This document shows positions 30,801-60,145 of a stretch of 64,000 nucleotides of DNA, one piece after another. The notes beneath the pieces are model-generated. The model worked only from the letters and a program-made list of their open reading frames with translations. It had not been told where the DNA came from and made no database searches. Origin of the DNA: Leucobacter weissii (GTDB lineage: Bacteria; Actinomycetota; Actinomycetes; Actinomycetales; Microbacteriaceae); assembly GCF_017565745.1 (NCBI RefSeq), contig NZ_JAGDYM010000003.1:1-64000 (forward strand), in the 5' to 3' direction. A program made the position numbers and the translations under genes. Positions within the stretch are counted from its first letter, which is position 1; every line of letters begins with the position of its first letter.

Positions 30801-32933
30801 AAGGTGGCGATCATCGGCGCGGTGACGGCGGAGACGCCGACGCTCGTCGGCCCGGCCGGTGTGGCGGACCTCGAGTTCGGCGATCCGGTGGACGCAGTGA
30901 ACCGTGTCGCGGCGCAGCTCACGGACGGCAACGCCGAGAACGGCGAGGCGGACGTGCTGATCGCCGAGTACCACGAGGGTGCGAGCGCCGGCTTGAAGGA
31001 GGGCGCCACGCTCGACCAGGAACTCGCTCAGGGCGGTGTCTTCGCGAAGATCGTGAACGAGACCAGCCCGAAGGTGTCGGCGATCTTCACCGGCCACACC
31101 CACAAGGAGTACTCGTGGGACGGGCCCGTCAAGGGAAGCGACGCCAAGCGGGCGGTTCTGCAGACCGGCAACTACGGCGAGAACATCGGCCAGAACGTGC
31201 TGACGATCGACCGCGCGACGAAGAACGTCCTCTCCTACGAGGCCAAGAACGTCAAGCGGACCACCGCCGCCGAGGCGGATCTGGTCGCCGAGTTCCCGCG
31301 CGTGGCGCAGGTGAAGACGATCGTGGACGCGGCCCTCGCGTACGCGGCGACCGAGGGGCAGAAGCCCGTCGGCTCCGCGACGGCGGACATCACGACCGCA
31401 CACACGGGCGGCGCCTACGGGGTCGACGGCTACGGCGGAGCCGATGCCAAGCGCGACGATCGCGCCAACCAGTCCGCCTTGGGCAGTCTGGTCGCCGACT
31501 CCCTCGTCGAATCGTTGAAGGAGCCGCGTCTGGGCGGCGCCGAGATCGGCATCTCGAACCCGGGCGGCATGCGCGACGAGCTCCGCAAGGGCACGATCAC
31601 GTATGCCCAGGCGAATGCCGTGCTGCCGTTCGCGAACAACCTGTGGACTACCTCGCTCACCGGTGCGGATCTCAAGTCCGTGCTCGAGCAGCAGTGGCAG
31701 CGGGACGCGGCGGGCAATGTGCCCAGCCGTCCGTTCCTCGCGCTGAGCGTGTCGAAGAACGTGCGCTACACCTTCGACACCTCGAAGCCCGAGGGCGAGC
31801 GCATCACCGGCATCTGGGTGAGTGGCGCCCGCGTCACCGACACCGCGAAGTTCCGCGTGGCGGCGCCGTCGTTCCTGATCGAGGGCGGAGACAACTTCAC
31901 CGCTTTCAAGAAGGGGACCGACGCCCGCGACTCGGGTCTTGTGGATCGCGATGCCTGGATGGCCTACCTGACGGCGCATGAGAACGCCGCACCGGACTTC
32001 GCCAAGCGCGGTGTCGAGGTGCAGAATGTTCCGTCCGCGGCCGTACGGCAGGGGTCGGAGTTGTCGTTCCGGATCGGCGACGTCGACGGAGCGAACACGA
32101 AGACGAATGGCGGCCTGAACCTCACCTCGCTGGGGAGCCCCGACAACACCGCGGTGAAGGTGAGCTTCGCGGGGTCGTCGGTCGCTCCCGCGGAGGTGTC
32201 GCTCACCGACGGGAAGGCACTCGTAAAGGTGCCGGTGCCGTCCGACGTGTCCGGCGACGTCCTGGTGAAGGTCGTCGGTGCGGAGTCCGGCACCGAGGTC
32301 ACGATTCCGGTGACCGTGGAGCAGGCGCCGGTTGTGGAGCCGGAGCCGGTCGTGCCCGCGATCTCGGTGAAGTTCGCGCGTACGTCGCCACGCTACGGGC
32401 AGTCGAATACGGCGACGGTCACCGTCTCCGCCGACGGCGTACGCGCCTCGGGCGACGTCCAGGTGGCCTTCGACGGCAAGACGCTGGCGAAGAACGGCAG
32501 GCTTTCCGCCGGGAAGTACACCGTGACGCTGCCCAAGACGGTGAAGCCGGGCACCCGGTCGCTGGTCGCGAAGTTCCTTGGAACGAAGACCGTCGCAGCC
32601 GGGCAGGTCTCGAAGAAGCTGAAGGTCGCCAAGGGCAAGGCGTCCGTGTCTGCGAAGCTCGCGAAGTCGAAGATCACGCGCAAGCAGAGGGGCAAGGTGA
32701 CGGTCACGGCCAAGCTCTCGGACGCGTCGGGCGTGTACGCGACCGGGAAGCTGCGCGTCCTCAAGGGCAAGAAGGTGCTCAAGACGGTGAGTCTGAAGTC
32801 GTCGCAGAAGGGGAAGGTGCGCATCGCTTTGCCGAAGCTGAAGAAGGGCAAGCACGCGTTGCGGGTCCAACTGCAGGGCGGCCTCCTGATCTCCAAGGCG
32901 ACGTCGAAGCGGTTCACTCTTCGGGTGAGGTGA
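27801..32933 (+). CDS. Secreted ExeM/NucH-type nuclease fused to a 5'-nucleotidase
   Basis: The 1,710-residue exported protein has a signal peptide (residues 1-37, ending near ATAANAAT). Domains follow in order: lamin-tail domain (40-210); OB-fold region (237-350); endonuclease/exonuclease/phosphatase domain (520-850) with GDLKLATFNVLNYF, SLEEIENS, GDFNAYAKEDP and SSDHDPVLVG; 5'-nucleotidase metallophosphatase domain (869-1110) with NINDFHGR, SDGDNIGAS, GNHEFDLG and FTGHTHKEYSW; 5'-nucleotidase C-terminal domain (1189-1392) with ISNPGGMRDEL; Ig-like domains; and a Lys/Arg-rich tail module (1519-1710) ending KRFTLRVR. It would cut extracellular DNA or RNA and release phosphate from the nucleotides in one polypeptide. 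I chose ATG 27801, with AGGA six bases upstream, over ATG 27789. No LPXTG sorting signal is present. Confidence 0.92.
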   Translation: MSEQSFSARFGRGLLAAAAGLAVAVTGLVPGATAANAATAWDGVVINEAYLSGGSAGAAYTNKFVELYNTTDRDISLTGTSLQYRSATGSGSTTGVTALTGTIKAKGYYLVQGGSNGANGAALPAPDASGSLNPSGTTGTVLLAVGTSALTIPTGSVVGDANVVDLLGYGTSNTFEGTVATAPSGNTDVRSNNRTDGVDTDDNRNDFSLSATITPQNSASTGGGTDPTDPTDPEPGAEKTIAEIQGTGATSPEVGNTVTTRGVVTASYATGGFNGFYIQTPGTGGDIDLAAHTASDGIFAYGGNAAGTVAVGDYVKVTGVIAEYRASSATTPGTLTQILPANAAAVEKLTESVTPPQPAKVAFPRNEAQRESLEGMLIEPQGDYTVSNTYSTNAYGTVGLATGTSPLITPTEAAKPGTQAYQDVVADNAARGVVLDDGASTNYGPSASAANKAIPLPYLSKTKPVRVGAKVAFTRPVILDYRFDVWGFQPTQHITGQTPEAQLPVSFENTRTPKPEEVGGDLKLATFNVLNYFTTTGDQVSGCSFYNDRDGNPIAVNTNCDARGAANAVNLKRQEDKIVAAINGLGADVVSLEEIENSVKFGKDRDDALSKLVAALNAKAGPGTWSFVPSPAAADLPAPSAEDVIRNAYIYRSATAETVGGSVVLTGNAAFSNAREPLAQAFKAKGAPDAAKILVITNHFKSKSGPRSGSPAPSPENQDTGDGQGYWNGDRKAQATALVAFADAQKQAHGTERVFLVGDFNAYAKEDPIGILEAAGYVNQGAKTGKYSYSFSGQSGSLDVIFASEQADEAVTGADIWNINAPEAIALEYSRYNYNVTDFYDDSAYRSSDHDPVLVGVSNGEGEGPSETVKLNLLNINDFHGRIDKTTTVQFAGTIEQLRKAEGEDNTLFLSDGDNIGASLFNSSVQKDQPTIDVLNALDLKASAVGNHEFDLGMDDLTGRVIGAPEARNAKWDYLGANVYQKGTQKAALKEYSIQEIDGLKVAIIGAVTAETPTLVGPAGVADLEFGDPVDAVNRVAAQLTDGNAENGEADVLIAEYHEGASAGLKEGATLDQELAQGGVFAKIVNETSPKVSAIFTGHTHKEYSWDGPVKGSDAKRAVLQTGNYGENIGQNVLTIDRATKNVLSYEAKNVKRTTAAEADLVAEFPRVAQVKTIVDAALAYAATEGQKPVGSATADITTAHTGGAYGVDGYGGADAKRDDRANQSALGSLVADSLVESLKEPRLGGAEIGISNPGGMRDELRKGTITYAQANAVLPFANNLWTTSLTGADLKSVLEQQWQRDAAGNVPSRPFLALSVSKNVRYTFDTSKPEGERITGIWVSGARVTDTAKFRVAAPSFLIEGGDNFTAFKKGTDARDSGLVDRDAWMAYLTAHENAAPDFAKRGVEVQNVPSAAVRQGSELSFRIGDVDGANTKTNGGLNLTSLGSPDNTAVKVSFAGSSVAPAEVSLTDGKALVKVPVPSDVSGDVLVKVVGAESGTEVTIPVTVEQAPVVEPEPVVPAISVKFARTSPRYGQSNTATVTVSADGVRASGDVQVAFDGKTLAKNGRLSAGKYTVTLPKTVKPGTRSLVAKFLGTKTVAAGQVSKKLKVAKGKASVSAKLAKSKITRKQRGKVTVTAKLSDASGVYATGKLRVLKGKKVLKTVSLKSSQKGKVRIALPKLKKGKHALRVQLQGGLLISKATSKRFTLRVR

Positions 32934-32955
32934 CGTAGCGATCGGCTGTGAGGCA

Positions 32956-33002
32956 CGCCGGCGGCTCCGGAGTCCGTTCCACGGGATCCGGAGCCGCCGG
33001 CG
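32956..33002 (+). terminator. Terminator after the nuclease/5'-nucleotidase gene
   Basis: CGCCGGCGGCTCCGGA (32956-32971) and TCCGGAGCCGCCGGCG (32987-33002) give a perfect 16-bp stem with a 15-nt loop, 22 bp after the stop codon. Confidence 0.85.
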
Positions 33003-33027
33003 TTCCCGGTAGTGCGCGGGTACTGGG

Positions 33028-33033
33028 TAGGCT
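33028..33033 (+). promoter_or_regulatory. -10 box of the GT2 gene at 33040 (leaderless type)
   Basis: TAGGCT ends six bases before GTG 33040. Confidence 0.45.
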
Positions 33034-33039
33034 GGTGCG

Positions 33040-33909
33040 GTGGAGACTGGCGGGGCGCGGGAGCGCCGGGACGACGGGTTCTCGCTGCTGCTCCCCGTGT
33101 ACGCGGGCGACGACGCGGGGTTCCTGCGCCTCGCCTTCGCCAGCTCGGTGCTGGAGCAGAGCCAGCCGCCCGCGGAGGTCGTCATCGTGCAGGACGGCCC
33201 CGTGCCGGGGGACCTCGCCGAGGAGCTCCGACGCCTCGCCGAGGAGAGTCCGGTCCCGGTGCGGCTCGTCGTCCTGCCGGAGAACCGGGGTCTCTCCGAA
33301 GCGTTGAACGCGGGGCTCGCGGTCTGCGGCTACGAGGTCGTGGCGCGGATCGACGCCGACGACGTGTCGATGCCGGAGCGCTTCGAGCGGCAGTGGCGCC
33401 TGATCCGGGAGGGCTACGACCTGATCGGCACCGGCATGGCCGAGTTCGAGCGGGATCACGGGACTCCCGGCGACGTGCGCGTTCCCCCGGTCGGCGCCCG
33501 GCGCATCCGCGAGCACGCTCGCACCCACAACCCGTTCAACCACCCCACGATGATGTACCGCCTCGCCGCGGTGGAGCGCGTCGGAGGCTATCAGCCGCTC
33601 GGCAAGATGGAGGACTACTGGCTCGGCGTGCGGCTGATCGTGAGCGGCGCCCGCGTCGAGAACATTCCGGATCCCCTCGTCGGCTACCGCGTCGGCTCGG
33701 GAGCGTTCTCGCGGCGCGGCGGCTGGGCCGAGGCGCGCACCGAGTGGCGGCTGCAGAGCGAGATGCGCCGGATCGGGTTCATCACGACGGCTCAGTACCT
33801 GCGCAACGTGGTGATGAAGGGCGCGTACCGGCTGATGCCGGCGAGCCTCAAGCGGGTGCTGTTCCGCCGTTTCGTCGCGGGCGGCCTGCCGGGCGACCGG
33901 GCCGTGTGA
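33040..33909 (+). CDS. Glycosyltransferase family 2
   Basis: The 289-residue cytoplasmic GT-A enzyme has FSLLLPVYAGDDAGFLRLAF, EVVIVQDGPVPGDL, LPENRGLSEALNAGL and the nucleotide-sugar/metal motif VARIDADDVSMPERF, followed by HNPFNHPTMMYRLAAVERVG and the acceptor-side MEDYWLGVRLI. This arrangement is that of capsule and exopolysaccharide transferases of the AmsE type, which add galactose or related sugars to lipid-linked oligosaccharides. It stands alone between two exoprotein genes with its own promoter and a terminator on each side. The substrate is unknown. Confidence 0.85.
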   Translation: METGGARERRDDGFSLLLPVYAGDDAGFLRLAFASSVLEQSQPPAEVVIVQDGPVPGDLAEELRRLAEESPVPVRLVVLPENRGLSEALNAGLAVCGYEVVARIDADDVSMPERFERQWRLIREGYDLIGTGMAEFERDHGTPGDVRVPPVGARRIREHARTHNPFNHPTMMYRLAAVERVGGYQPLGKMEDYWLGVRLIVSGARVENIPDPLVGYRVGSGAFSRRGGWAEARTEWRLQSEMRRIGFITTAQYLRNVVMKGAYRLMPASLKRVLFRRFVAGGLPGDRAV

Positions 33910-33935
33910 GGTCTCCCGGGAGTCCGGGGTGCGGA

Positions 33936-33964
33936 TGCCGGGCTTGCGGGCGGCGAACCCGGCA
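33936..33964. terminator. Bidirectional hairpin between the GT2 and LGFP genes
   Basis: TGCCGGG (33936-33942) and CCCGGCA (33958-33964) pair around 15 nt in the 84-bp gap between convergent genes. Confidence 0.5.
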
Positions 33965-33993
33965 CTCGCGTCCCCGATCCGGGGCGCGCGTCC

Positions 33994-36502: not shown

Positions 36503-36593
36503 CTCAGTTTGCTTTCGCACGGTCTACGTTCCGGTCGTCTGCGCAGCTTCAGGGCAGGCGATCCCACTCGCCCAGATGGAGAAGATGCGCGTT

Positions 36594-39500
36594 ATGAAAC
36601 AGCATTCGACGTTGTTCTCGAACCGGCTGCGTTCCGCCGCCACCCGCTTGCTCGGAGTCGCCGCCGCCACCGCGGTCGCCGTGACGGCTCTGGTGCCGGC
36701 GGCGCCGGCGCTCGCCGACGAGATCGCCGACATCGCCACCGTTCCGGTGGCGGGCGACCTCAACCCGATCGACGTGAAGGTCGTCAGGGCTTCCGGAGCC
36801 CTCAAGAACACCATCGTCGAGGGCATCGCCGACGGCCTCGGGCGCCGCGGCCTCTACGAGCTGCCGGGGCTGACCTCCCCCGTCGCCGACCAGGAGGGCA
36901 ACGGGCTGAACGAGGCCTCCTACGGCGCGAACGACGTCGTCGGCACGCAGTGGAAGCCGAAGTACGGCTGGGACTACGAGACGGTGCTCGAGGAGCGGCC
37001 GGAGCGGCTGGAGGCCGTCGAGGGCGGGCTGCGGATCGGATCCGGCACCGACCGGATCCAGCGCGATGCGAACGGGCTCACGAGCACGACCGCGCTCAAC
37101 GACGCCGTGCTGAACCTCGAGGAGCTCAGCGATGACGCCGCAGCGGTGCTCGACCTCAAGGGCGACGACGCCGAGATCCTCACCGCCGACAGCATCGTGA
37201 CGACGGCCGAGTCGACGGGCGGTCTCGAACTCGAGCTGAGCACCGCGATCAACGGACTCACCCTCTTCGGCGAGCAGATCGACACGCCGGGCGGCGTGCT
37301 CGCGGAGCCGGTCACCCGGTCGAGCTCCATCGCGACCGACGACGTCGTCGCGCTGCTCCGCGGCCTCGGCGTCGATCCGGAGGACATCGACCAGTACGCG
37401 CCCATGGTCGGCAGCTCCAACCTCGCCGCCGAGCTCTTCGTGACCGCCTCCACCTCCGAGACCGGGGGCCTGGGGGTCGAGATCAAGGTCGAGGTCGATC
37501 TCGCCGCGGTCTCCGCCGGCGACGAGGAGACCCCGGCGGGCCTGCTCTTCGACGTCGAGCTGCACGCCGACAACACGCTGCTGGAGGCGACCTTCGGCGG
37601 CGCCGAGATCGCCGCCGAGCCGGTCGATCCCCCCACCGTCACCGAGCTGACGCCGCTGAGCGCCGTGGCCGGCGACCTCATCACCGTGCAGGGCACGGGC
37701 TTCCAGCCCGACGCCACCACCGTCACCGTGGGCGGGGTCCGCGCCACCGACGTGGCCGTGCTGGCCGACGGCACGACTCTGACCTTCCTGGTGCCGGCCG
37801 GTGCCGCCGGTGCCGATCTGCCCGTGATCGTGAAGACCCGCGGCGGCGAGGTCGAGGCAGGCGCGCTGACCGTCTCCGCGCCGATCACCATCACCGAGCA
37901 CCCGTCCAACCGCACGATCGAGGCCGGCGACGAGGCGCGGTTCACCGCCGCGGCCAGCGGCCACCCGGCCCCCTCCGTGCAGTGGCAGTTCCGCACCGCG
38001 CTCGGCGGCGCCTGGACCGACATCGACGGCCAGACCTTCCCCAGTGCGCTCACGGGCACCCTGGAACTGCCCGCCGAGGCGGCCTGGACCGGACTCCAGG
38101 TGCGCGCGCTCTTCAGCAACGGCGCGGGCCAGGAGGTCGCCAGCAACTCCGCGACGCTCACCGTGAACCAGCCCACCGTGCCCGTCGACAGCGATCTCGC
38201 AGCGCTCGCCTCGCCGGTCAAGGTCGGCGCCGTGGCCCTGATCCTCACCGGGCAGGCCAGCGGGGGCACCTTCGCGGGTCTCATCAACGGCGAGCTGAGC
38301 AAGGGCGTCGAGCTCGGCGAGCCGGGCCGCTTCGTCCTCACCGAGACGGGCACTCCGGCTCCGGGCCGGACCCTGCGCGCCACCTACCCGGCCGACAGCA
38401 GCGCGACCGGCTCCGGCATCGGCGACCTCGCCTCCGGAACCCGGTTCGGACCGGTCACGGTCGAGAACGTGCACGGCGCCGAGCGGATCACCTCGACGGC
38501 CACCGTCGAATCGTTCCTGCTGACCGACAAGGCGCTCGACGACAAGGGCCGCATCGGCTCCGTCGCCGAGGTCACCGACCTGATCGAGGCGACCCAGGTC
38601 ACCACCACGGTCACCGCGCCGGTCGATGAGAGCGCCCCCACCACGGCCGAGGCGCGCATCGGCTCGCTCAAGATCCTCGGCGAGCCCGTCACCGAGGCCG
38701 ACGGCCTCGTGGACGGCGTCATCGCGGAGCCGATCACCAAGACCTACGCCAAGGAGATCACCGACATCCCCGCCGTGCTCGAGGGGCTCGACGTCTCGAT
38801 CAGCGACTACTTCGAGGATCCCTCCGAGCTCGTCGGCAACGCGCGCGTGGTCGTCGAGATCACCGTCGAGCAGAAGACGGAGACCGAGACGGACACCGCC
38901 GCTGCCAGCGGACTGGTGGTCACCGGCAAGGTCGAGCTCGATCTGCTGCTCGAGCCGATCGGCACCGCGGCCGCGTTCGTCAAGCGCGTGGAGATCGCCT
39001 CCGACGGACTCGGCGAGGCCTTCAACACGGAGCTCGCGGCCACGGCGGTGGCTCGCAACGGCGCCAAACTGCCCGAGCCGGGCGACGGCAACGGCCCGGG
39101 CCCGGTCGACCCCGAACCGGAGGAGCCGGAAGAGCCCCTGCCCTTCCTCTCCTACAAGCCGGAGGCCGCACCCGACCGCGTGATCCTCAACCCGACGGCG
39201 ACGCCGTCCACCTCGCAGAACATCACCTGGCGCACGATCGACACCGTCACCTCGGGCACGGTCGAGTACTGGCCGACCGAGGCGGGCAGCGCTCAGAAGG
39301 CGACCGTCCAGGCGACGACCGGTGACGTGTACACCACGACGAGCAAGGAGGAGGGCGAGTACGACTCGCGCAAGCACTCCGCGACGCTCGAGGGGCTCGC
39401 CCCGGCCACCTCGTACACCTACCGCGTCGGCACCGAGTCCGAGGCGGGCGATCGCTGGAGCCCCGAGTACACCTTCCGCACCGGAGCCGCCCAGGCCGAG

Positions 39501-41876: not shown

Positions 41877-41881
41877 TCCGC

Positions 41882-41913: not shown

Positions 41914-41969
41914 GCCCGGCGCGCCGAAACCACCCAGGATCGACCCACCGTCACGACGAAAGAGTGGAC

Positions 41970-44900
41970 ATGACGTTCGAAACCCCCGCGCGATCCGCCG
42001 CCGAGCAGGCCGCGCACACGCAGCTTCCCCCGGCGCGCCGCGCTGGTCGGCGATCGCTGGCCGCCGCGCTGGTCGGCGCGCTCTCCCTCGGCTCCCTGGT
42101 GGCGTTCAGCCCGGTGACGGCCGACAGCAGCCAGGCCTCCACCGGCGGCACGGCCACCACCAAGCCCGTCACCGCGCGACTGGATCCCATCCTGCTCGAC
42201 GGCACGACGAGCGGCCAGCTGAACGGCAGGATCGACCTGCCCGTGCCGCTCGGCGATATCGGAGAGTACGAGCTGCCGGGCATCACGGCTCCCCAGCCCG
42301 ACGCGAGCGGCAACGCCACGGTCGAGAAGAGCTACCCGGCCGGACCGATCGACGGCGTGCTCACCGATCCCGAGGACGGCGAGGTCGACGAAGAGCCCGG
42401 TCGCGGCATCGACATCGGCGACAGCACCGACCGCATCGTGCGCACCCCCAGCGGGCTCGAGGCGCGCACCGAGCTCCGCGATGTCGTGGTCGACGTGAAC
42501 GGGCTCAACGACAAGGCCGGAACGGTCCTCGAGGTGGGCGAGATCGTCCGCGCGGATCGCGTGGACACCGTGGCCGTCGCGGGCGTCGGCGGGGGCACCT
42601 CCGTGAAGACCGAGGTCGCGGGCCTGACCCTGCTCGGCCAGGGCGTCGCCCTCGTCGAGGGCCGGCTGCCGTCGCCCGTCACGCGCACGCACACCGTGAA
42701 CCTCACCAAGAACGACTTCGTTCGGATCGCAGCCGCCCTCGGCATCGATCCCGAGGACGTGAGCGAGTACGAGGGCCTCATCAGCTCCGCGACCCTCAAT
42801 CTCACGCTGGCCGTCACGGTGAGCACCCCGGCGGCCGGCGGCCTGCTGGTCACCGCGAACATCAGCGGTACGGCCAAGGCCTCGGCGATCCTCGGGCTCG
42901 GCAGCGCCGATCTGCGCACGGGAGCCAACGATCGCATCCTCGACGCCACGTTCGCCGCCGCAGAGGTGTCGGCCCCGAGCGCCCTCCAGCCCGTCGCGGA
43001 GAGCCTGGACCCCGACACCGCTGAGCCCGGCGAGGCCGTCACCGTGCACGGCACCGGCTTCGTCGTCGGCGGCACGCGCGTGACCGTCGCCGGCACCGAC
43101 ACCGAGGTGCTGCGCGTCGATCCCGAGGGCCGGAGCGTCGAGTTCCGCCTGCCCGAGGGGCTCAGCGGAGGACGCTACCCCGTCCTGGTCGAGACCGTCG
43201 GAGGCTCCGTCGACGCGGGCGAGCTGACGGTCGACGCCGACGACACGGTGCCTCTCAGCATCACGGGCATCACGCCGGGCAGCGGCATCGGCGGATCCCA
43301 GGTGACGATCACCGGTTCCGGTCTCGTCCCCGGCGCCACCTCCGTGCGTCTCACCGACGCCGACGGCACGGTCCACCGGATCGGCGCCTCGCGCGTCAGC
43401 GTCGCGGAGAGCCGCGTCTCCGCCACCTTCCTGCTGCCCGACGCGGCGGCGACCGGCCAGGCGAGCGTCGTCGTCTCGGTGCCCGGCCAGACGGCCGATC
43501 CGGTGAACGTGACCGTGACGCCGTACGAGCTCTCCGACGTTCCCGCGAGCGGGGACGCCTGGGCGAAGGGGCTGCAGGGCAACCAGCAGAAGGTCTCGCT
43601 GACCGTCGACAACTCCTCGGCGATGACCTGGACCGCGCCGACGGTCATCAACCCGGCCGGTGAGGCCGGGCCCTACAGCGTGCTGAACGTCTCGCAGGGC
43701 GGCGTCGACACCACCGGCCACGGCAGCAACAGCGGAACCGAGGGCGGCTACACCGGCACGGTCACCCGCACGCTCGACGCGCTGAAGTCCGAAGTGCGCA
43801 GCGACGACTTCAAGCTCGATCTCCCGGCGCCCTGGAACTCGTTCTTCTCTCCGGCGGGCTCCGTCGTGCGGGCGAACAGCGTCTCCGCCTCCTCGACCGC
43901 GCGCACGGACGGCGGCCTCAGCAACCAGGTGGCGCTCGACAACCTCACCGTGCTCGGCAATCAGGTGCCGCTCGTCGACGGCAAGCTGACGCAGGCCCAC
44001 ACCTACGAGGTGCGGTACGACTCCAACGACCTGAAGAACCGCCAGGCGATGAACGGCGTGTTCTGGTCGGCGGCCGGAGGCGGTTACGACCGCCTCAAGT
44101 CGGAGACCTACGGCACCCTCTGGGTGACGGTGCGCCCGGCCGCCGAGACGGCCTCGGGCGGCGTCGCCTCCACGGCGGCCTTCGAGGTCACCGCCGAGAT
44201 CCAGTACCGCTACAACGGCGAGAACGGCGGCTTCCTCTCGACCCGCGCGCGTCACGGCTCAGGCAACAGCCGAGACGGCCAGCGCGTCACCTTTCTCGAC
44301 GCCAAGGTGGGCGAGGTGCGGGCGACGACACCGGCCGCCGTCGCTCCGGCGATCACGAGCGCGACGCCCTCCGACATCGAGGCCGGCACGCAGGTCTCGC
44401 TGCAGGGCCGCGGCTTCAGCGCAGACAGCGTCGTGCGCCTCGGCGGTCAGAGCATCGCACCGGATTCGATCTCGTCGAACGGCACCCAGCTCGCCTTCAC
44501 GGTGCCCGACCTCGGCACCGGGTACTACGCGGCGACCGTGCGCAACACGGGCGGCGACTCCAACGCGCGCACGCTCGCGTTCAGGGGCGCTCCCGTCTTC
44601 ACGCTGCAACCCGAGGCCACGGTCACGGGTCGCGCCGGGCAGAACGTCACGCTCAACGTGGCGGCCGATGGGGTGCCCGACGCGGACATCCAGTGGCAGC
44701 GGCTCGGCGAGCAGGGCTGGGAGGACATCCCGGACGAGACCGCCGCCGGCTACCGCTTCGGTCTGGAGGAGGAGGATCACGGCGCCCGCCTGCGCGCGGT
44801 CGCGAGCAACTCCGAGGGCAGCGCCTCGAGCACCGAGACCGAGATCTTCGTGCAGATTCCGCCCAGCATCGTGGAGCAGCCGGGCGACGCGTCCGTGACG

Positions 44901-47900
44901 GCGGGCGAGTCCGCGGTCTTCACGGTGCAGGCGGCCGGCCGTCCCACCCCGGACATCCAGTGGCAGCGCCGCACCTCCGAGGGCTGGGAGGACATCGCCG
45001 GCGAGACGGGCGCCCAGCTCTCCTTCGCCGCGACCTCGGCGGATCACGGCTCCGAGTTCCGGGCGAGGGTCAGCAACGCCGCCTCCGCCGTGTCCTCGCA
45101 GCCCGCGGGCCTCTCCGTGAGGTTCCAGCCCGAGATCACGCGTCAGCCGGGCGCCGTGCTCGTGGCGGACGGCAGCGCCGTCCAGATCGTCTCGGAGGCC
45201 GCCGGCAATCCCGCACCGTCCGTCGCGTGGCAGGTCCGCGCACCGGGCTCCTCGGAGTGGACCGCCATCGACCCGGCGGAGCACGCCTCCGCGTCGACCG
45301 GTCGCCTCGAGCTGACCGCCGGGGCCGCCTGGCACGGGGCCACGGTGCGCGCGGAGTACCGCAACGAGGTCGGTTCCGCGGTGTTCACCGACGAGGTCCC
45401 GATCGCGGTGCTGCCCGAGCTCTCCGTGCGGGGCACGGCCGATGTCGGCGATGAGCTGAGCATCGCAGGGCTCGGAGACCCCGAGACCGATCTCTGGGGC
45501 GCCGATGCCGGCATCTCGCTCGAGTACCAGTGGCTGCGCGACGGCGAGGAGATCGCCGGGGCCGACGCGATCGGGTACACCCTGAGCGCGGACGATCACC
45601 GGTCGGAGATCTCCGTCCGCGTCACGGCCGCGCGCAGCGGAGTCGATCCCCTCGTGGTGGTCGTCGGCCCGACCGGTCCCGTGATGGATCACTTCACCAG
45701 CACCGAGCCGCCCGCCATCAGCGGAACGGCCACGGTGGGGCACGACCTGACGGTCGACCCCGGGGCCTGGAGCATCGACGACGTCGAGCTGAGCTACGCC
45801 TGGTTCGCCGACGGCGTCAGGATCGACGGCGCCGACTCCGCGGAGCTGACGCTGCGCCCGGCCCAGTACGCGGCCAGGATCACGGCGCGCGTCGCGGCCG
45901 AGCGAGAGGGATACTACTCCGTCGCCGTGCTGAGCGACGCCACGGAGGCCGTGAGTGCGGGAGCGTTCGAGCACACCGCCGAACCGGAGATCACCGGCAC
46001 CGTCCGCGTGGGCGAGACCCTCTCCGCCTCGGCGGGCGAGTGGAGCGTCGACGGGACCGCGGCGAGCTACCAGTGGCTGCGGAACGGCGCGGAGATCGAC
46101 GGTGCGACCGGCCGCGACTACCTGCTGACGCCGCTCGACTTCGAGCAGCGGATCGGCGTCCGGGTCACCGCGACCGTCCACGGGTACGCCGACGCGCAGG
46201 CGGAGTCCTCCGATACGGCGGCCGTCGAGGCCGGTCATATCGCCGGAGTGGACGCCCCGAGCATCAGCGGCACGGCCCGGGTCGGCGAGTCGCTGCACGC
46301 CACCACGGGCACCTGGTCGGTGCCCGGCACCGCGTACCAGTACCAGTGGCTCGCGGGCGGCGAGGAGATCGAGGGGGCGACGGCCGCGGCCTACGCCCTG
46401 ACCGCCGCCGATCTGGGCAAGACGATCACCGTGCGGGTGACCGCGATCGCCACCGGCTACCGGCCGGAGCCGGCGGAGTCGGCCGCGACCGAGGAGATCG
46501 GCAAGGGCAGCTTCGCCAACACCGCGCTGCCGCAGCTGAGCGGCGCCGCGATCGTCGGCGAGACGCTCACCGTCAGCGCGGGCGAGTGGCAGGTGCCCGG
46601 CACCGACCACAGCGTGCAGTGGCTGCGCAACGGCGTCCCGATCGCGGGGGCCACGGGGTCGAGCTATCTGCTGACCGACCGCGACCACACGGCGGCCATC
46701 ACCGCCACGGTCACCGCGACCAAGGCCGGCTACCTCTCGGCGCGCGCCACCTCGGCGGCCAGCGACCCGGTCGCGAACGGGTCCTTCGCCAACACGGTGC
46801 TCCCGGCCGTCAGCGGCTCCGGTCGCGTGGGCGAGCCGCTCAGCGTCGATGCCGGGGAGTGGGGCGGGATCTCGCCGACGCTCGCCTTCCAGTGGTATCG
46901 CGGAGACGATGCGATCGCCGGGGCCGTCGACTCGGTCTACGAGCCCACTGCCGAGGATCGCGGTCAGACCCTCACGGTGCGGGTCGTCGCCACGGCCAAG
47001 GGCTACGCGGACACCGTCGTGACCGCGTCGGTCCCCGCGCAGGTCACCGAGGGCGTCATCGAGAACGAGACCGCGCCCGCGGTCGCGGGCGAGCTCGAGG
47101 TGGGCGGCACGCTCACCGCCGAGCCGGGCTCCTGGTCGCGGCACGGCGTGAGCGTCAGCTACCTCTGGTCCGTCGAGGGCAGCTCCGCGACCCATCGCGG
47201 ACGCGAGTACGTGCTGCGGCCCGCGGACGAGGGCCGGCGCGTCACCCTCACCGTGACCGCGAGCAAGATCGGCTACGCCGACGCCACCGAGACGGTGACG
47301 ATCGCGGGCGTCGTGAGCCCCGGCACGCTCTCGCTCGCCGCGGATCCCGTGCTGAGCGGCGATCCGGTGGTCGGGTCCGAGGTCACGGTCGCGCCCGGTC
47401 GCTGGGATCGCGCCGGTGTCGCCACCGCCTACCAGTGGCTGCGCGACGGCCGCCCGGTGGACGGAGCGACCGAGGCGACCTACACGATCCGCCCCGACGA
47501 CGTCGGCCGGGATCTCGCCGTGACCCTCACGGGCAGCGCCGCGGGCTACCGCTCGATCTCCGTCACCGTCGAGCTGGGCGAGGCGCCGCGCGCGGCCGAG
47601 CTGGCTGTCAGCACGCGGCCGAGCATCGGCGGCCGTGCCGTCGTCGGCGGCACCGTGACGGCGAACCCCGGGTCCTGGGCCGCGAACGGCGTCGCCGTGA
47701 GCGGGGTCGAGGTCTCCTACCAGTGGCTGCTGGGCGGCAGCGCCATCGCCGGAGCCACCTCGGCGAGCTACCAGGTGCCCGCCTCCGCGCGCGGCAAGCA
47801 GCTGTCGCTGCGGGTGACCGCGAGCAAGGACGGCCACGTCGCCGCGGGCGTGAACGTCGCCCCGCGCACGGTCGCCGCGGGGACCTTCGCGGCGCGCTCG

Positions 47901-48152
47901 GTGTCGCTGAAGGGGACGGCCCGCGCGGGCAAGACGCTGAAGGCGAGCGCCTCCTGGACGGTCGGCGGCGTCAAGAACCGCTATCGCTGGGTCGTCGGCG
48001 GCAAGACGGTCTCCAACGGCACCAAGTCCGGCTACAAGGTGAAGGCCAAGGACCGGGGCAAGAGGATCACGGTGACCGTGACCGGCACCAAGAGCGGCTA
48101 TGCCACGGCGACGGCGAAGACGAAGACGGTGAAGGTCTCGAAGAAGAAGTAG
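41970..48152 (+). CDS. Giant secreted Ig-ladder surface protein, paralogue of the phosphatase scaffold
   Basis: The 2,060-residue exported protein has a long signal peptide (basic stretch PARRAGRRSLAAALVGALSL, cleavage near residue 50). The N-terminal module (about 60-340) is related to those of the phosphatase protein (EYELPGITAPQPDASGN; LGIDPEDVSEYEGLI). Then come two IPT/TIG domains (344-520), a second related module (520-780), a third TIG (793-870), three Ig domains (874-1145) with IQWQRLGEQGWEDIPDE type sequences, and ten Ig-ladder repeats of about 90 residues (1148-2060), each with a YQWLRDG-like and a VRVTA-like segment. The last repeat is Lys/Arg-rich and ends KTVKVSKKK. No enzyme motif is visible, so it is probably an adhesin or structural surface fibre. 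ATG 41970 has AAAGAG upstream; GTG 41964 is an alternative. Confidence 0.85.
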   Translation: MTFETPARSAAEQAAHTQLPPARRAGRRSLAAALVGALSLGSLVAFSPVTADSSQASTGGTATTKPVTARLDPILLDGTTSGQLNGRIDLPVPLGDIGEYELPGITAPQPDASGNATVEKSYPAGPIDGVLTDPEDGEVDEEPGRGIDIGDSTDRIVRTPSGLEARTELRDVVVDVNGLNDKAGTVLEVGEIVRADRVDTVAVAGVGGGTSVKTEVAGLTLLGQGVALVEGRLPSPVTRTHTVNLTKNDFVRIAAALGIDPEDVSEYEGLISSATLNLTLAVTVSTPAAGGLLVTANISGTAKASAILGLGSADLRTGANDRILDATFAAAEVSAPSALQPVAESLDPDTAEPGEAVTVHGTGFVVGGTRVTVAGTDTEVLRVDPEGRSVEFRLPEGLSGGRYPVLVETVGGSVDAGELTVDADDTVPLSITGITPGSGIGGSQVTITGSGLVPGATSVRLTDADGTVHRIGASRVSVAESRVSATFLLPDAAATGQASVVVSVPGQTADPVNVTVTPYELSDVPASGDAWAKGLQGNQQKVSLTVDNSSAMTWTAPTVINPAGEAGPYSVLNVSQGGVDTTGHGSNSGTEGGYTGTVTRTLDALKSEVRSDDFKLDLPAPWNSFFSPAGSVVRANSVSASSTARTDGGLSNQVALDNLTVLGNQVPLVDGKLTQAHTYEVRYDSNDLKNRQAMNGVFWSAAGGGYDRLKSETYGTLWVTVRPAAETASGGVASTAAFEVTAEIQYRYNGENGGFLSTRARHGSGNSRDGQRVTFLDAKVGEVRATTPAAVAPAITSATPSDIEAGTQVSLQGRGFSADSVVRLGGQSIAPDSISSNGTQLAFTVPDLGTGYYAATVRNTGGDSNARTLAFRGAPVFTLQPEATVTGRAGQNVTLNVAADGVPDADIQWQRLGEQGWEDIPDETAAGYRFGLEEEDHGARLRAVASNSEGSASSTETEIFVQIPPSIVEQPGDASVTAGESAVFTVQAAGRPTPDIQWQRRTSEGWEDIAGETGAQLSFAATSADHGSEFRARVSNAASAVSSQPAGLSVRFQPEITRQPGAVLVADGSAVQIVSEAAGNPAPSVAWQVRAPGSSEWTAIDPAEHASASTGRLELTAGAAWHGATVRAEYRNEVGSAVFTDEVPIAVLPELSVRGTADVGDELSIAGLGDPETDLWGADAGISLEYQWLRDGEEIAGADAIGYTLSADDHRSEISVRVTAARSGVDPLVVVVGPTGPVMDHFTSTEPPAISGTATVGHDLTVDPGAWSIDDVELSYAWFADGVRIDGADSAELTLRPAQYAARITARVAAEREGYYSVAVLSDATEAVSAGAFEHTAEPEITGTVRVGETLSASAGEWSVDGTAASYQWLRNGAEIDGATGRDYLLTPLDFEQRIGVRVTATVHGYADAQAESSDTAAVEAGHIAGVDAPSISGTARVGESLHATTGTWSVPGTAYQYQWLAGGEEIEGATAAAYALTAADLGKTITVRVTAIATGYRPEPAESAATEEIGKGSFANTALPQLSGAAIVGETLTVSAGEWQVPGTDHSVQWLRNGVPIAGATGSSYLLTDRDHTAAITATVTATKAGYLSARATSAASDPVANGSFANTVLPAVSGSGRVGEPLSVDAGEWGGISPTLAFQWYRGDDAIAGAVDSVYEPTAEDRGQTLTVRVVATAKGYADTVVTASVPAQVTEGVIENETAPAVAGELEVGGTLTAEPGSWSRHGVSVSYLWSVEGSSATHRGREYVLRPADEGRRVTLTVTASKIGYADATETVTIAGVVSPGTLSLAADPVLSGDPVVGSEVTVAPGRWDRAGVATAYQWLRDGRPVDGATEATYTIRPDDVGRDLAVTLTGSAAGYRSISVTVELGEAPRAAELAVSTRPSIGGRAVVGGTVTANPGSWAANGVAVSGVEVSYQWLLGGSAIAGATSASYQVPASARGKQLSLRVTASKDGHVAAGVNVAPRTVAAGTFAARSVSLKGTARAGKTLKASASWTVGGVKNRYRWVVGGKTVSNGTKSGYKVKAKDRGKRITVTVTGTKSGYATATAKTKTVKVSKKK
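45412..48152 (+). repeat. Ten tandem ~90-codon Ig-ladder repeats
   Basis: Each unit runs from a P-x-I/L-S-G-x-A-x-V-G-x-x-L strand through G-x-W, YQWL-x-x-G-x-x-I-x-GAT and D-x-G-x-x-I-x-VRVTA to a GY-x-x segment. The protein units are clearly homologous but the DNA has diverged, so recent slippage is not evident except in the shared TACCAGTGGCTGCG core. Confidence 0.8.
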
Positions 48153-48166
48153 ACCTGCCGCGCGGG

Positions 48167-48205: not shown

Positions 48206-48236
48206 TCTCGTGTTTCTGAATCGTAGGAAAAAGGAA

Positions 48237-48265
48237 GACGAACCGCAGGTTGCCCATAGGTGAAC
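48237..48265 (-). promoter_or_regulatory. Candidate PHO box (reverse orientation) upstream of the lamin-tail protein gene
   Basis: On the minus strand GTTCACC (complement of 48259-48265) matches the PhoP repeat core exactly. Weaker matches follow at 11-bp steps (complements of 48248-48254 and 48237-48243). A -10-like ACTAGCGT lies downstream near 48312. The rest of the 255-bp gap has no gene. Confidence 0.35.
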
Positions 48266-48407
48266 AGTGGGCGAAGGGTGCCGCCCGAGTCCCCGCGGCG
48301 GGCGCGTGCGAACTAGCGTCGTCACCAGGTGCGCCCCGTCTCCGGAACGGTCCGCGGCGCTCCACTGCAAGCTCCCGACCAGCACCCGTTCACAGCGAGG
48401 AATGCCA

Positions 48408-51400
48408 ATGACGCCCAGAACCCCGGAAGCCGGACTCCGCGTCCACGGACGGACGACCCGCTTCGCCCGCAGTCTCGTGGCGGGGGTGACCGGACTCGCG
48501 CTCATCGCCTCGGGCTTCGCGGGCGCCTCCGCGGCCTCGGCCGTCACGCCGGCGCCGGCCTCCGGAGTCGTGCCGCAGAACGTCACCGAGTCGGACCGCG
48601 ACTCGATCCGGATCAACGAGGTCCGCTCGAATCCGAACCCCGACTTCGTCGAGCTCGTGAACATCGGCGACCAGCCGATCGACCTCAACGGCTGGCGCGT
48701 CGCCGACACCGATCACGCGGCGACCCCCATCGTCACCGCGACGCAGGTGATCGAGCCCGGCGGGTTCTACCAGTTCAATCCGGACGGCATCCCCGGCGGT
48801 TTCGGCCTGGGCAGCAGCGATCTGGTGAGCATCTACTCCCCGAGCGGCATCGATCCGGTCGACAGCTACTCCTGGACCTCGCACCGCAACCCCTCCTGGC
48901 AGCGCTGCGCGAACGGCACGGGCGCCTGGGCGCTCGCCTCCGCCTCCACCCCCGGCGCGGCCAACTCCTGCGCGCAGACCGCGTCGTCGACGGCGCTCGC
49001 GGTGAGCGGCGAGCTCGAGACCGGCAAGCCGATCACGCTCACCGCATCGCTGGCTCCGAGCACCGCGCTCGGCACGGTCGCCTTCAAGGACGGCGACACC
49101 GTGCTCGGCACCGCGCACTCGACCGCGGGACACGGCAGCCTCGAGACGACGCTGACGGCCGGGACGCACTCGATCACCGCCGAGTTCACCCCGATGTTCG
49201 CCGGCGACTTCAGCGCCTCGGCCTCGGCGGCGCAGACGGTCGAGATCGAGGACACCGGCGAGCAGCCCGGTGACCGCACCATCCAGATCGTCACCGCGCA
49301 GCCCGTCACGGCCGGCAGCGCATTCGATTTCACGGTCGCCGGCTTCTCCCCGAACGAGTCGTTCGAGCTTCGGCTGGCCGGTGACCCGGTCATCGGGCTC
49401 GGACAGTTCACCGCCGACGGCGCGGGAGGCTTCACCGGACAGGCCACCATTCCCGGATCCACCGCAGGAGGAGCGAAGACCGTCGAGGCGGTCGCCGCGA
49501 GCGGCAGCGCGAGCGCCCCGCTGCAGGTGACCGCGCTGCCGAACCTCACGCTGCAGTGGGACAACGCGACCGTCTTCGGCGCCGTCGTCGGAGCAGCGAA
49601 CAACCCGGTCGTCACCGGGCGGGTCGCCGGACTCGGCGACGCCTCGGCCACGACGGTCGAGGCCACCGCGGTCGGCAACGCCCAGGTCATCGCGACGAGC
49701 GACGTGACGGGGCAGATCGACGCCGACGGCGGCTTCGCGGTGAGGGTCGTGCCCCACGGCGTCGGCACGTCCTCGGTGACGCTGACCTTCACCGCCTCCG
49801 ACGGACGCACGACGACGGGGATCCTCACCTACCGGGTCTCGGCCGCGCTGCCCGCGGGCGCCACGGCCTACCACGGACTCGCGGACGCCTCCGCGGCGCA
49901 GGAGGTGGGAGACGGCTACCTCCTCGTCGCCGACGACGACACCAACGGGATCCGGCTCTACGGCCCGGACGGCGGACTGCCCGTGAAGACCTTCGACTTC
50001 TCGGCCTCCGGCACCAATCAGGTGCCCGCGCTGAAGTCGGGCGAGGAGTGGGATCTCGAGAGCTCGGCCCGCATCGGCGACACCATCTACTGGGTCGGCT
50101 CGATCGGCAACACCCGCAAGGGCAACATCCGGGCGGATCGGGATTCGGTCATCGCGACCAGGATCACCGGCTCCGGCGCCGACACCGTCCTGGAGTACGT
50201 CGCGCACAACCAGAACATCCGCCAGTCGCTGATCGGCTGGGACACGAGCGACGCCCACGGCTACGGCGCGAACTTCTTCGCACTCCAGGCGGGCACCCAG
50301 TCCGGCGTGAGCGTCACGAACAACCCGCGCGCGCTGAACGTCGAGGGCGCGGCGATCGCCCCGGACGGGCAGACGCTGTGGCTCGGGTTCCGCTCCCCGG
50401 TCGTGCGCCCGCAGGACGCGCCGAGCTGGAACCTGCAGAACAATCTGGCCGTGATCGCGGCCGTGACCGATGTCGCCGGACTCGTCGCCAGCGGTCGCAC
50501 GACCGCGGCGTCCGTCGCGCCGAAGCCGATCCTGCTCGACCTCGGCGGCCGCGCGATCCGCGACCTCACGCACACCGACGACGGCAAGTACCTCATCGCG
50601 GCCGGATCCTACGGCAACGACCGCGACTTCGCGATCTACGGCTGGGACGGCTCGGTCGACGCGAACGGACGGGCCACCAACCTGGTCCGTTCGGCCCAGA
50701 CCCCGGATCTGGCCGGCTGGGCGGGATCCTACGAGGCGCTGCCCGGCGCGTCCGGCCTGAGCGACGGCACGCAGATCAGGGTGCTGCAGGACGTGGGAAC
50801 CGTCGACCTCTACGGCGACGGCACCGAGGCGCAGGATCTCTCGCCGAAGAACGTGCAGAAGTTCCCCGTGCACGCCTACACGCTCGACTTCGGGGGCGCC
50901 TTCGAAGAGGCGCAGACGGTGCAGACCACGACCGGTCTCGCGGTCTCCGGCAATCGCTTCGCCGGACAGGAGCTGACCCTCACGGCCAGCGTGAGCCCCG
51001 CGGCCGCTGCGGGGTCGGTCGAGTTCCGCGACGGCGACCACGTCATCGGCAGCCAGGAGGTCGCCGGAGGCGCCGCGACGCTGAGGACGAGCGCGCTCGC
51101 GGCCGGGGAGCACTCGCTCACCGCCGTGTTCACGTCCTCCGACGAGGCGGCCTACCTGGGCTCCGCATCGGAGCCCGTGGCGCTCACGATCGGCCAGGAC
51201 CCGTTCACGATCCGGCTGAACGAGGTGAAGACGAACCCGAATCCCGACTTCGTGGAGCTGATCAACATCGGCGACCAGCCGATCGACATCAACGGCTGGC
51301 GCGTGAACGACTCGGACCACACGCCCACGCCGATCGCGACGGTGTCGACGATCATCGAGCCGGGCGGGTTCTACCAGTTCAACCCCGATGCGATTCCGGG

Positions 51401-52754
51401 CGGCTTCGGTCTGGGCGCGAATGATGCGGTGAAGATCTACCTGCCTGACGGCACGACGCTGGTCGACGAGTACTCGTGGACCAGCCACCGCAATCCGTCG
51501 TGGCAGCGGTGCCCCGCGGGCACGGGGGAGTGGGTGCTCTCCGCTGTGGCGACCCCGGGCGCCGCGAACCAGTGCCCGGCGGTGTCGACGGCCACGGTGC
51601 TCGAGGCGAGCGGCGAGCGGGTCGAGGGGGAGCCGCTGACGTTGACGGCGACGGTCGCCCCCGCTGACGCGGCCGGCGCCGTGGAGTTCCGCGACGGCGC
51701 CGCGGTGCTGGGCACGGAGACGGTGAGCGGAGGCGCGGCGTCGGTGACGACGACCTCGCTGACGGCCGGGGGCCACACGCTGACCGCGGTGTTCACGCCG
51801 GCGGATCCGGGAGCGTTCACCGCCTCCACCTCGGATCCGGTGTCCGTGGCGATCGCCGCCAAGCCCGCGGTGGACACGGTCACGCAGCTCGCGGTGAGCG
51901 GTGACCGCGTGGAGGGCGAGACGCTGTCGCTGACCGCGACGGTCACGCCGGCCGCCCCGGGCTCCGTGGAGTTCTTCAACGGCTCCGCGCTGCTGGGCTC
52001 GTCGGGGACGAGCGCCGGCGTCGCATCGGCCACGGCGACGCTGCCCGCGGGCACGCATCAGTTGCGCGCCGTGTTCGAGCCGGCGAACCCCGCGGCCTTC
52101 ACCGGCTCGACCTCCTCCGTCGTGAGCGTGACGGTGGCCGAGAAGCCGGTGGGGCCGGAGCCCGAGAAGGCGACTCCGCAGGTGTCGGTGACCGCGGCGA
52201 AGACGTCGCTCAGGTACGGTCAGGCGAACACCGCCTCCGTGACCGTGCGCGCCGACGGCGCGGCGGCCGCCGGCAAGGTGCGGGTCCTCTTCGCGGGCAC
52301 GAGCGTCGCGACCGTGGACCTCTCCGCCGCCGGAGCGGCCCGTGTGGCGCTGCCGAAGACGGTGAAGCCGGGGGCCCGTGCGCTGACGGCGGAGTACCTG
52401 GGCAGCGACACGGTCGCCGCGGGCCGGGCGCAGACGACGGTGCGGATCGCGAAGGCGGCGCCCGCCGTCTCGGCGAAGCTCGCGAAGAAGTCGGTGAAGC
52501 GGTCTCAGAAGGCCAGGGTCGCCGTGACCGTGAAGCTGCCGGGCGCCGGTGGCGTGCATGCGGCGGGCAAGGTGCGGGTGCTCGACGGGAAGAGGACCGT
52601 GAAGACGGTGACCCTGAAGGCGTCGCGCAAGGGCAAGATCTCGATCGCCCTGCCGAAGCTGAAGAAGGGCAGCCACAAGCTGCGCGTGGTCGTCCCGGCG
52701 ACCGCCACGCAGGCCCAGGCGCAGTCGAAGCGGCTCACCCTCCGCGTCCGGTAG
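48408..52754 (+). CDS. Giant secreted protein with two lamin-tail domains, a beta-propeller-like region and Ig repeats
   Basis: The 1,448-residue exported protein starts with a signal peptide (FARSLVAGVTGLALIASGFA; cleavage near ASAAS). Lamin-tail domain 1 (about 67-190; INEVRSNPNPDFVELVNIGD) is followed by an Ig domain, a beta-rich region and a propeller-like domain (485-832) rich in DGKYLIAAGSYGNDRDFAI-type blades and GAAIAPDGQTLWLGF. After another Ig domain, lamin-tail domain 2 (934-1056) repeats the first almost word for word (GGFYQFNPDAIPGGFGLG), then come two Ig domains and a Lys/Arg-rich tail (1255-1448) ending KRLTLRVR. That tail is clearly homologous to the tail of the nuclease/nucleotidase. 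The propeller may be an esterase or sensor, but no catalytic residues are identified. ATG 48408 has AGGA six bases upstream. Confidence 0.83.
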   Translation: MTPRTPEAGLRVHGRTTRFARSLVAGVTGLALIASGFAGASAASAVTPAPASGVVPQNVTESDRDSIRINEVRSNPNPDFVELVNIGDQPIDLNGWRVADTDHAATPIVTATQVIEPGGFYQFNPDGIPGGFGLGSSDLVSIYSPSGIDPVDSYSWTSHRNPSWQRCANGTGAWALASASTPGAANSCAQTASSTALAVSGELETGKPITLTASLAPSTALGTVAFKDGDTVLGTAHSTAGHGSLETTLTAGTHSITAEFTPMFAGDFSASASAAQTVEIEDTGEQPGDRTIQIVTAQPVTAGSAFDFTVAGFSPNESFELRLAGDPVIGLGQFTADGAGGFTGQATIPGSTAGGAKTVEAVAASGSASAPLQVTALPNLTLQWDNATVFGAVVGAANNPVVTGRVAGLGDASATTVEATAVGNAQVIATSDVTGQIDADGGFAVRVVPHGVGTSSVTLTFTASDGRTTTGILTYRVSAALPAGATAYHGLADASAAQEVGDGYLLVADDDTNGIRLYGPDGGLPVKTFDFSASGTNQVPALKSGEEWDLESSARIGDTIYWVGSIGNTRKGNIRADRDSVIATRITGSGADTVLEYVAHNQNIRQSLIGWDTSDAHGYGANFFALQAGTQSGVSVTNNPRALNVEGAAIAPDGQTLWLGFRSPVVRPQDAPSWNLQNNLAVIAAVTDVAGLVASGRTTAASVAPKPILLDLGGRAIRDLTHTDDGKYLIAAGSYGNDRDFAIYGWDGSVDANGRATNLVRSAQTPDLAGWAGSYEALPGASGLSDGTQIRVLQDVGTVDLYGDGTEAQDLSPKNVQKFPVHAYTLDFGGAFEEAQTVQTTTGLAVSGNRFAGQELTLTASVSPAAAAGSVEFRDGDHVIGSQEVAGGAATLRTSALAAGEHSLTAVFTSSDEAAYLGSASEPVALTIGQDPFTIRLNEVKTNPNPDFVELINIGDQPIDINGWRVNDSDHTPTPIATVSTIIEPGGFYQFNPDAIPGGFGLGANDAVKIYLPDGTTLVDEYSWTSHRNPSWQRCPAGTGEWVLSAVATPGAANQCPAVSTATVLEASGERVEGEPLTLTATVAPADAAGAVEFRDGAAVLGTETVSGGAASVTTTSLTAGGHTLTAVFTPADPGAFTASTSDPVSVAIAAKPAVDTVTQLAVSGDRVEGETLSLTATVTPAAPGSVEFFNGSALLGSSGTSAGVASATATLPAGTHQLRAVFEPANPAAFTGSTSSVVSVTVAEKPVGPEPEKATPQVSVTAAKTSLRYGQANTASVTVRADGAAAAGKVRVLFAGTSVATVDLSAAGAARVALPKTVKPGARALTAEYLGSDTVAAGRAQTTVRIAKAAPAVSAKLAKKSVKRSQKARVAVTVKLPGAGGVHAAGKVRVLDGKRTVKTVTLKASRKGKISIALPKLKKGSHKLRVVVPATATQAQAQSKRLTLRVR

Positions 52755-59383: not shown

Positions 59384-59389
59384 CTGCGG

Positions 59390-60139: not shown

Positions 60140-60145
60140 GGAGCC

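Follow-up and report, generated by a model that had tools for sequence, protein, structure and literature searches.

The first 64,000 nucleotides of contig NZ_JAGDYM010000003.1 of the actinobacterium Leucobacter weissii (RefSeq assembly GCF_017565745.1, forward strand; in the following "the window") encode four very large proteins which all end in a strongly basic immunoglobulin (Ig)-like module. Here, we describe these modules and their distribution over the genome of L. weissii and over other genomes, and we weigh the evidence that they may serve as a sortase-independent, non-covalent device for retention on the cell wall.

Four proteins with basic C-terminal modules

The first protein (27750..32933, + strand; 1727 amino acids), here named the nuclease, is a fusion of an LTD, an ExeM/NucH nuclease and a 5'-nucleotidase (NF033681 with 566 bits, PF02872, PF00932, PF16640). 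A Pfam and NCBIfam scan of its translation finds two Big_3_5 modules at the C-terminal end. The penultimate one (32376..32615, +; PF16640, 45.5 bits) has a net charge of +12 per 100 residues and the terminal basic one (32670..32930, +), which reaches the stop codon with the residues TLRVR, has +25. The phosphatase (36576..41876, +; 1766 amino acids; PF16656, PF00149, PF01833) is a purple acid phosphatase that carries TIG/Ig domains as well as repeats of another type, designated YQW; its penultimate repeat (41355..41612, +) shows +11 and its terminal basic repeat (41619..41873, +) shows +27 per 100 residues. The Ig-ladder protein (41964..48152, +; 2062 amino acids) is a TIG/Ig ladder with many YQW-type repeats, the last two of which (47601..47882 and 47889..48149, both +) have net charges of +6 and +25. 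Finally, the lamin-tail protein (48267..52754, +; 1495 amino acids; PF16640 with 231 bits, PF00932, PF12275) combines LTD, Big_3_5 and DUF3616 domains, with two LTD stretches and six Big_3_5 stretches in the Pfam scan. Its penultimate Big_3_5 module (52188..52451, +) has +8 and its terminal basic one (52491..52751, +), also ending in TLRVR, has +24 per 100 residues.

In the last 100 residues the net charge amounts to +29 (nuclease), +25 (phosphatase), +23 (Ig-ladder protein) and +26 (lamin-tail protein), and the bodies of all four proteins are acidic with -3.8 to -7.8 per 100 residues. The basic charge resides in the last module or the last two, with intermediate values (+6 to +12 per 100 residues) in the penultimate one. 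This means that high net positive charge is confined to the terminal module or modules of otherwise acidic proteins.

The initial annotation had regarded the ends of the nuclease and of the lamin-tail protein as homologous and those of the other two proteins as a different but equally basic repeat. Both views are confirmed: the two terminal Big_3_5 modules share 59% identity, and the terminal repeats of the phosphatase and the Ig-ladder protein share 47% and 51% in two alignments and represent a repeat type distinct from the PF16640 module. PF16640 (gathering score 35.5) is reached by the whole nuclease with 54.9 bits and by the lamin-tail protein with 231.3 bits, and the very last copies taken alone fall below this cut-off with 31.2 and 32.0 bits, respectively. 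In the phosphatase and the Ig-ladder protein PF16640 is not matched at E up to 0.1; for the YQW repeat the Pfam matches are weak or generic Ig and the NCBIfam matches belong to the ZirU family. The module of the nuclease and the lamin-tail protein hence belongs to a known family, PF16640, contrary to the impression left by the earlier remark that no named family is known for this role; it is not a member of a named anchor family.

The same annotation had noticed that the four proteins lack LPXTG, a membrane helix and known wall-binding repeats, and in this it was right. None of them contains an LPXTG-like motif, hence they do not qualify as LPXTG-type sortase substrates, and none has a hydrophobic C-terminal segment on the Kyte-Doolittle scale (best 19-residue mean in the last 70 residues, 0.14-0.45). 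Among their Pfam matches at E up to 0.1 there is neither the wall-binding domain of lactobacillus S-layer proteins nor any of the known wall-binding repeats LysM, WXL, SH3/GW, SPOR, CW-7, PG-binding, CWB1/2, SLH and ChW (PMC5817068, Table 1). With neither motif nor membrane segment no covalent step is to be expected.

Occurrence in the genome of Leucobacter weissii

The assembly comprises 29 contigs, in which 35 stretches around repeat matches and sortase genes were analyzed. PF16640 gives 92 matches in the genome, a typed YQW consensus 57 and a five-row YQW alignment 56. They define 52 open reading frames (ORFs) with PF16640 or YQW matches (repeat ORFs), 46 of which have a tail of at least +17 and no C-terminal hydrophobic segment. 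Three others (L088, L096 and the ORF of 1279 amino acids in locus L069) lack a basic module and have a membrane segment at the C-terminus, and in the remaining three (L071, the plus-strand ORF of L076, and L067) the basic module is located elsewhere than at the C-terminus. Put differently, a basic tail or basic module is present in 49/49 repeat ORFs without a C-terminal membrane segment and in 0/3 with one. In L088 and L096 the membrane helix is preceded by LATSG and LARAG, respectively, resembling sortase signals.

The PF16640 model is charge-neutral. The YQW ORFs were gathered with a model containing basic terminal rows and with the typed consensus, so that this bias is absent from the PF16640 set only; of its 31 ORFs 29 follow the basic rule and two have a C-terminal membrane segment. 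The association of the tail with the repeats also exceeds chance. Tails of at least +17 are found in 41 of 46 gene-like repeat ORFs and in 2 of the 178 gene-like ORFs without the repeats from these 470 kb, the 224 gene-like ORFs of the 35 stretches and the window having been called by a rule on the GC content of third codon positions (GC3), with six of the 52 repeat ORFs lying outside that set. One of the two repeat-less exceptions (L074, 1533-3746) is a neighbour of two repeat ORFs. In this locus (C14:92000-105000) three adjoining ORFs end in a basic tail that neither repeat model recognises, and this third kind of tail follows the same rule.

Among the 41 tail-bearing ORFs of at least 500 amino acids the median is +26 for the tail and -5.6 per 100 residues for the body, with a positive body in only 4/41. 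In 15 of the 16 ORFs that have at least three modules and no C-terminal membrane segment, no recognised module is as basic as the last one. A chance resemblance of the four window proteins is ruled out since the rule holds in 46/52 ORFs: nearly every protein with one of the two Ig-like repeat types in this genome ends in a strongly positive repeat. These proteins may be secreted; a crude signal-peptide scan (not a dedicated predictor) was positive in 37 of the 46 basic-tailed ORFs.

Two further loci deserve mention. Four close paralogous ORFs of 706-1113 amino acids (L092, C25:221000-240900) show three nearly identical basic tails and a similar one. An ORF of 386 amino acids (L379, C26:59695-59970), not among the 52 and matched by the model of terminal Big modules alone, lacks a basic tail and has its basic Big-like module in the N-terminal half, ahead of a part without assigned function.

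Origin of the charge and descent of the modules

The net charge per 100 residues averages +28.0 in terminal YQW modules and -6.5 in internal ones of acidic or neutral character; for Big modules the averages are +25.3 (terminal) and -3.9 (internal, without strong positive charge). Lysine makes up 15-18% of terminal versus 1.0-1.5% of internal acidic or neutral modules, and aspartate plus glutamate 1.4-1.5% (1.4% in terminal Big modules) versus 11-12%. The charge shift exceeds 0.2 in 48 of 83 YQW columns and in 43 of 81 Big columns, with no column shifted by more than 0.2 in the opposite direction. Moreover, the mean shift per column is 0.08-0.10 in the core (core columns being defined by letters, not by structure) versus 0.39-0.47 elsewhere, and the alignments of terminal modules reveal no short invariant motif. 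These alignments indicate that the whole surface is recharged with the fold core spared, and not that a binding motif was acquired.

AlphaFold2 predicts the terminal YQW module (phosphatase) as a domain mostly of strands with a mean predicted local distance difference test (pLDDT) score of 89; the terminal Big module is less certain, with modest confidence (mean pLDDT 71.7). Fold searches yielded Ig-like and fibronectin-like matches of a generic kind, with no E value as good as 0.001, and profile searches against the PDB pointed to T4 Hoc for the YQW type and to an S-layer protein for the Big type, which are to be taken as leads only.

In a repeat tree from all columns the label "terminal" changes five times (YQW) and twice (Big). 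As such a tree is open to composition bias, the reconstruction was repeated on low-charge columns. There, the grouping of terminal Big modules persists (7 changes; mean with shuffled labels, 19.3) and points to shared descent; terminal YQW modules show little grouping (9 changes, shuffle mean 12.8, lowest 9), suggesting either repeated recharging or poor resolution.

These data bear on the view that the proteins are freely released, the tail assisting solubility or folding of large acidic proteins or the module having spread by recombination without selection for binding. The partly shared descent of the terminal Big modules would agree with it, as would the many relatives without a recognised anchor (see below). 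That two repeat types and even a third kind of tail obey the same rule, that terminal YQW modules group so little on low-charge columns, and that lysine is enriched to such an extent in terminal modules all speak against it, and we regard this view as quite improbable.

Carriers of the basic modules

Domain tallies cover 49 repeat ORFs, among them 45 with the tail (of the 52, one very long ORF and two membrane-tailed ORFs were left out). They give the top 25 of 43 and the top 25 of 46 families, counting domains without assigning them to ORFs. Represented are nuclease, nucleotidases, metallophosphatases including purple acid phosphatase, NAGPA, rhamnosidase, RCC1 and FG-GAP domains as well as peptidases of the types M1, M14 and S8. 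Thus, the basic tail is generic, occurs on unrelated proteins and is usually placed at the exact C-terminus. A DNA-binding tail for the nuclease only is ruled out because it is found on so many unrelated proteins.

Two of the three repeat ORFs with a basic module elsewhere have peptidoglycan peptidase domains: one YQW module of +27 stands directly before a VanY domain (carboxypeptidase) and another of +22 directly before an M23 peptidase domain. A CAP protein ends in a YQW module of +30. In enzymes acting on peptidoglycan a wall-binding module is expected at such a position.

It could be argued that the modules are adhesive tails for polyanions outside the cell, such as extracellular DNA, plant pectin, host glycosaminoglycans or mineral surfaces, and not for the own wall. 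A diffuse positive charge without obvious specificity would suit this function, and among the carriers are a nuclease, nucleotidases and a phosphatase. The modules directly before the VanY and M23 domains do not conform with it, nor does the presence of the tag on unrelated proteins, and the absence from the three repeat ORFs with a membrane segment would be odd for a pure adhesin; altogether we consider outside adhesion unlikely.

Another conceivable function is that of a sorting, secretion or processing signal, with the charge as the code that is read, e.g., by a protease or an envelope machine. Its C-terminal location in 46/52 ORFs independently of the repeat type would fit, and an ORF of 376 amino acids with two basic YQW repeats (L065, C1:18693-19820) is found directly before a sortase gene (C1:20986-21294). 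The module is, on the other hand, not C-terminal in the VanY and M23 ORFs, in L067 and in the ORF of 386 amino acids, the terminal alignments lack a short invariant motif, and we know of no Gram-positive machine of this kind. A signal function therefore appears very unlikely.

Relatives in other genomes

The loci from other genomes described here are best or chosen matches and hence show occurrence, not frequency. Among the best 80 of 582 confirmed relatives of the ExeM/NucH nuclease in named genomes, 17 end in an LPXTG-like motif with a hydrophobic segment, six in a hydrophobic segment without the motif and three in SLH; five were flagged as basic and two are cut. Of the flagged ones L187, L188 and L203 look like basic Ig-like ends; L151 seems to be translated out of frame, and L140 represents a Lys-Pro-Gly repeat. 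Fourteen of these 80 relatives, from Arthrobacter and Pseudarthrobacter (e.g., L152, L158, L162, L170), display by eye a two-cysteine tail of the form C..P..P ... Y..C, which is neither LPXTG nor basic and is possibly a further anchor type.

For choice_anch_I, 30 loci were inspected: six are LPXTG-like, 20 fall under "other" (one visibly SLH-like and one probably a wrong-frame reading), three were flagged as basic and one is cut. The three flagged loci were not counted, because they read like wrong-frame translations of GC-rich DNA.

The initial annotation had proposed a search for the module in other actinobacteria, and this search gave a divided picture. The model of terminal Big modules has matches at 1e-10 in 46 of the 297 genomes of the order. 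In another family of this order (f76), all 21 ORFs taken from strong matches in three genomes lack a C-terminal membrane segment and have +11 to +35 in their last 100 residues, 20 of them +16 or more; the bodies of 18/21 are acidic. The best loci of the 11 other genomes of the genus with a match comprise six that end with +16 to +25 without a membrane segment, four with a membrane segment and low charge, and one that is cut. Similar basic tails are seen in another family of the order, and only rarely elsewhere in the genus. At 1e-9, matches of the YQW model are present in 109 of the 199 genomes of the family, and some proteins of its best loci in other genomes presumably end in or contain SLH, CWB2 or excalibur domains.

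Several observations weigh against a general role of the basic module in anchoring. First, 47 of the 80 ExeM/NucH relatives and 20 of the 30 choice_anch_I relatives end in nothing recognised by the scan, and there is no credible basic tail among these 30 loci. As most relatives lack a recognised end, these enzymes do not necessarily require an anchor. Second, the terminal Big model gives 51 matches here; of 30 further genomes in the genus, 19 have none and the others at most five each. Among the 29 best YQW loci from other genomes of the family the charge of the last 100 residues varies from -1 to +27 with only five reaching at least +16, and among the 29 best Big loci from other genomes of the order 12 have at least +16, three +12 to +15 and 14 lower values. 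These counts across genus, family and order mean that the strong form is patchy. Third, in L067 and the ORF of 386 amino acids the basic module lies away from the C-terminus, and no wall-enzyme domain was found in either, L067 being covered by the domain tallies and the other ORF being judged by reading its sequence only.

Fourth, 27 of 30 TIGR03773 loci of the order encode surface proteins that have kept a membrane segment at the C-terminus. The exceptions are one locus cut by a contig end, one just under the threshold and one apparent wrong-frame reading. In L. weissii itself, the two best TIGR03773 matches (545 and 1279 amino acids) in the L069 cluster (C2:13640-21893) end in membrane segments, too. 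A weaker match of 722 amino acids in the same cluster ends in a basic repeat, so that both types of end are found side by side. With 27/30 loci and the two best ORFs here keeping the membrane segment, TIGR03773 is unsupported as a case of anchor swapping. The sortase-substrate model PF00746 is matched once in L. weissii and zero to eight times per genome in 30 others of the genus; the model is weak and gives no clear contrast that would bear on a possible replacement of sortase anchors within the genus.

Genomic context

Between the genes of the nuclease and the phosphatase an LGFP-repeat protein (PF08310; 33994..36567) is encoded on the - strand; LGFP is a different repeat that is often found in surface proteins. 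The other neighbours, all on the + strand, include an AT3-SGNH acyltransferase (24585..26585) with SucT as best NCBIfam match at 348.7 bits, far from the cut-off of 1275, two family 2 glycosyltransferases (26635..27633 and 33040..33909) and a GlfT2-like galactofuranosyltransferase (52856..54721; PF17994, PF19320). Further downstream (54759-61422) an LpxA-like hexapeptide transferase, a UDP-GlcNAc 3-dehydrogenase-like MocA (Gfo/Idh/MocA) protein and a DegT aminotransferase follow, which possibly make a 2,3-diamino sugar, and beside them lies a PpgS-like glycosyltransferase/synthase, with all NCBIfam matches below the cut-offs. The surroundings of the four genes fit a predicted cluster for a wall glycopolymer.

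Proposed role and relation to known anchors

Taken together, non-covalent and mainly electrostatic retention on anionic wall polymers is rather probable and, in our opinion, the best explanation for the basic modules. A sortase-independent anchor is favoured because the tail is generic, usually stands at the exact C-terminus, is absent from the three repeat ORFs with a C-terminal membrane segment, has a counterpart before the catalytic domain of two peptidoglycan peptidases and occupies the slot that is LPXTG-like or SLH in some relatives of the nuclease. The idea of the initial annotation that such modules hold these proteins to anionic wall polymers thus fits the sequence pattern better than the other explanations; release into the medium may nevertheless take place, considering that in most relatives of these enzymes the scan recognises no known type of end.

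In this retention model the terminal modules are ordinary Ig-like domains (Big_3_5 and YQW type) with non-core positions changed to lysine or arginine and cleared of aspartate and glutamate, and the recharged modules would serve as a generic tag for non-covalent retention. The protein would be secreted, probably with its acidic body extending outward, and the one to two cationic C-terminal modules, the last to emerge, would bind to anionic wall polymers via many weak charge contacts; putative ligands are teichoic acid, teichuronic acid or an acylated galactan. A further-reaching proposal is that of charge-coded anchoring for much of the Ig-repeat surface protein set of bacteria, in which whatever Ig-like repeat is last becomes supercharged, the charge itself and not the fold or a motif is the anchor, and sortase or SLH anchors are replaced in parallel in several actinobacterial lineages. 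This proposal is plausible but must be regarded as tentative.

The suggested mechanism resembles known electrostatic wall binding, although by comparison the modules are not members of a named anchor family. In the lactobacillus S-layer proteins SA of L. acidophilus, CbsA of L. crispatus and SlpA of L. brevis a positively charged terminal region binds to secondary wall polymers without sortase; in those of L. brevis the remaining part has a low isoelectric point, and the polymer bound by SlpA is not teichoic acid (PMC2571106). Similarly, a positive terminal region of a putatively secreted protein is proposed here from the translations, but the tag consists of one or two recharged Ig-like modules on 46 ORFs and does not belong to one S-layer family. 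GAPDH and enolase are described to bind ionically to lipoteichoic acid, and Table 1 of the same review of Gram-positive surface proteins from 2018 includes no Ig-like or charge-only anchor domain (PMC5817068).

With PF16640 (Big_3_5) the terminal modules of the nuclease and the lamin-tail protein share the fold family and differ from its internal copies by their reversed charge. With LPXTG-type sortase substrates (PF00746) they have in common the C-terminal anchor slot, used in this way by the 17 nuclease relatives mentioned above, but the window proteins have neither the motif nor the membrane segment. Several of the 49 ORFs in the domain tallies match NCBIfam choice-of-anchor models (choice_anch_I, M and D) or TIGR03769/TIGR03773. 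Choice-of-anchor names describe families whose C-terminal anchor varies; a recharged Ig-like anchor does not appear in the names of the matched models (names were compared, not documentation), and TIGR03773 differs also in that its relatives mostly keep the membrane segment. A literature search, with most subscription papers outside its reach, found no report of basic Ig-like tails as anchors that are independent of the repeat type and distributed genome-wide.

If the retention model is true, prediction based on motifs of the LPXTG, SLH or LysM type would miss some 46 proteins in L. weissii and possibly comparable sets elsewhere. The modules would then represent a simple modular display tag, and with these proteins one could test directly to what extent charge by itself keeps very large proteins on the Gram-positive wall.

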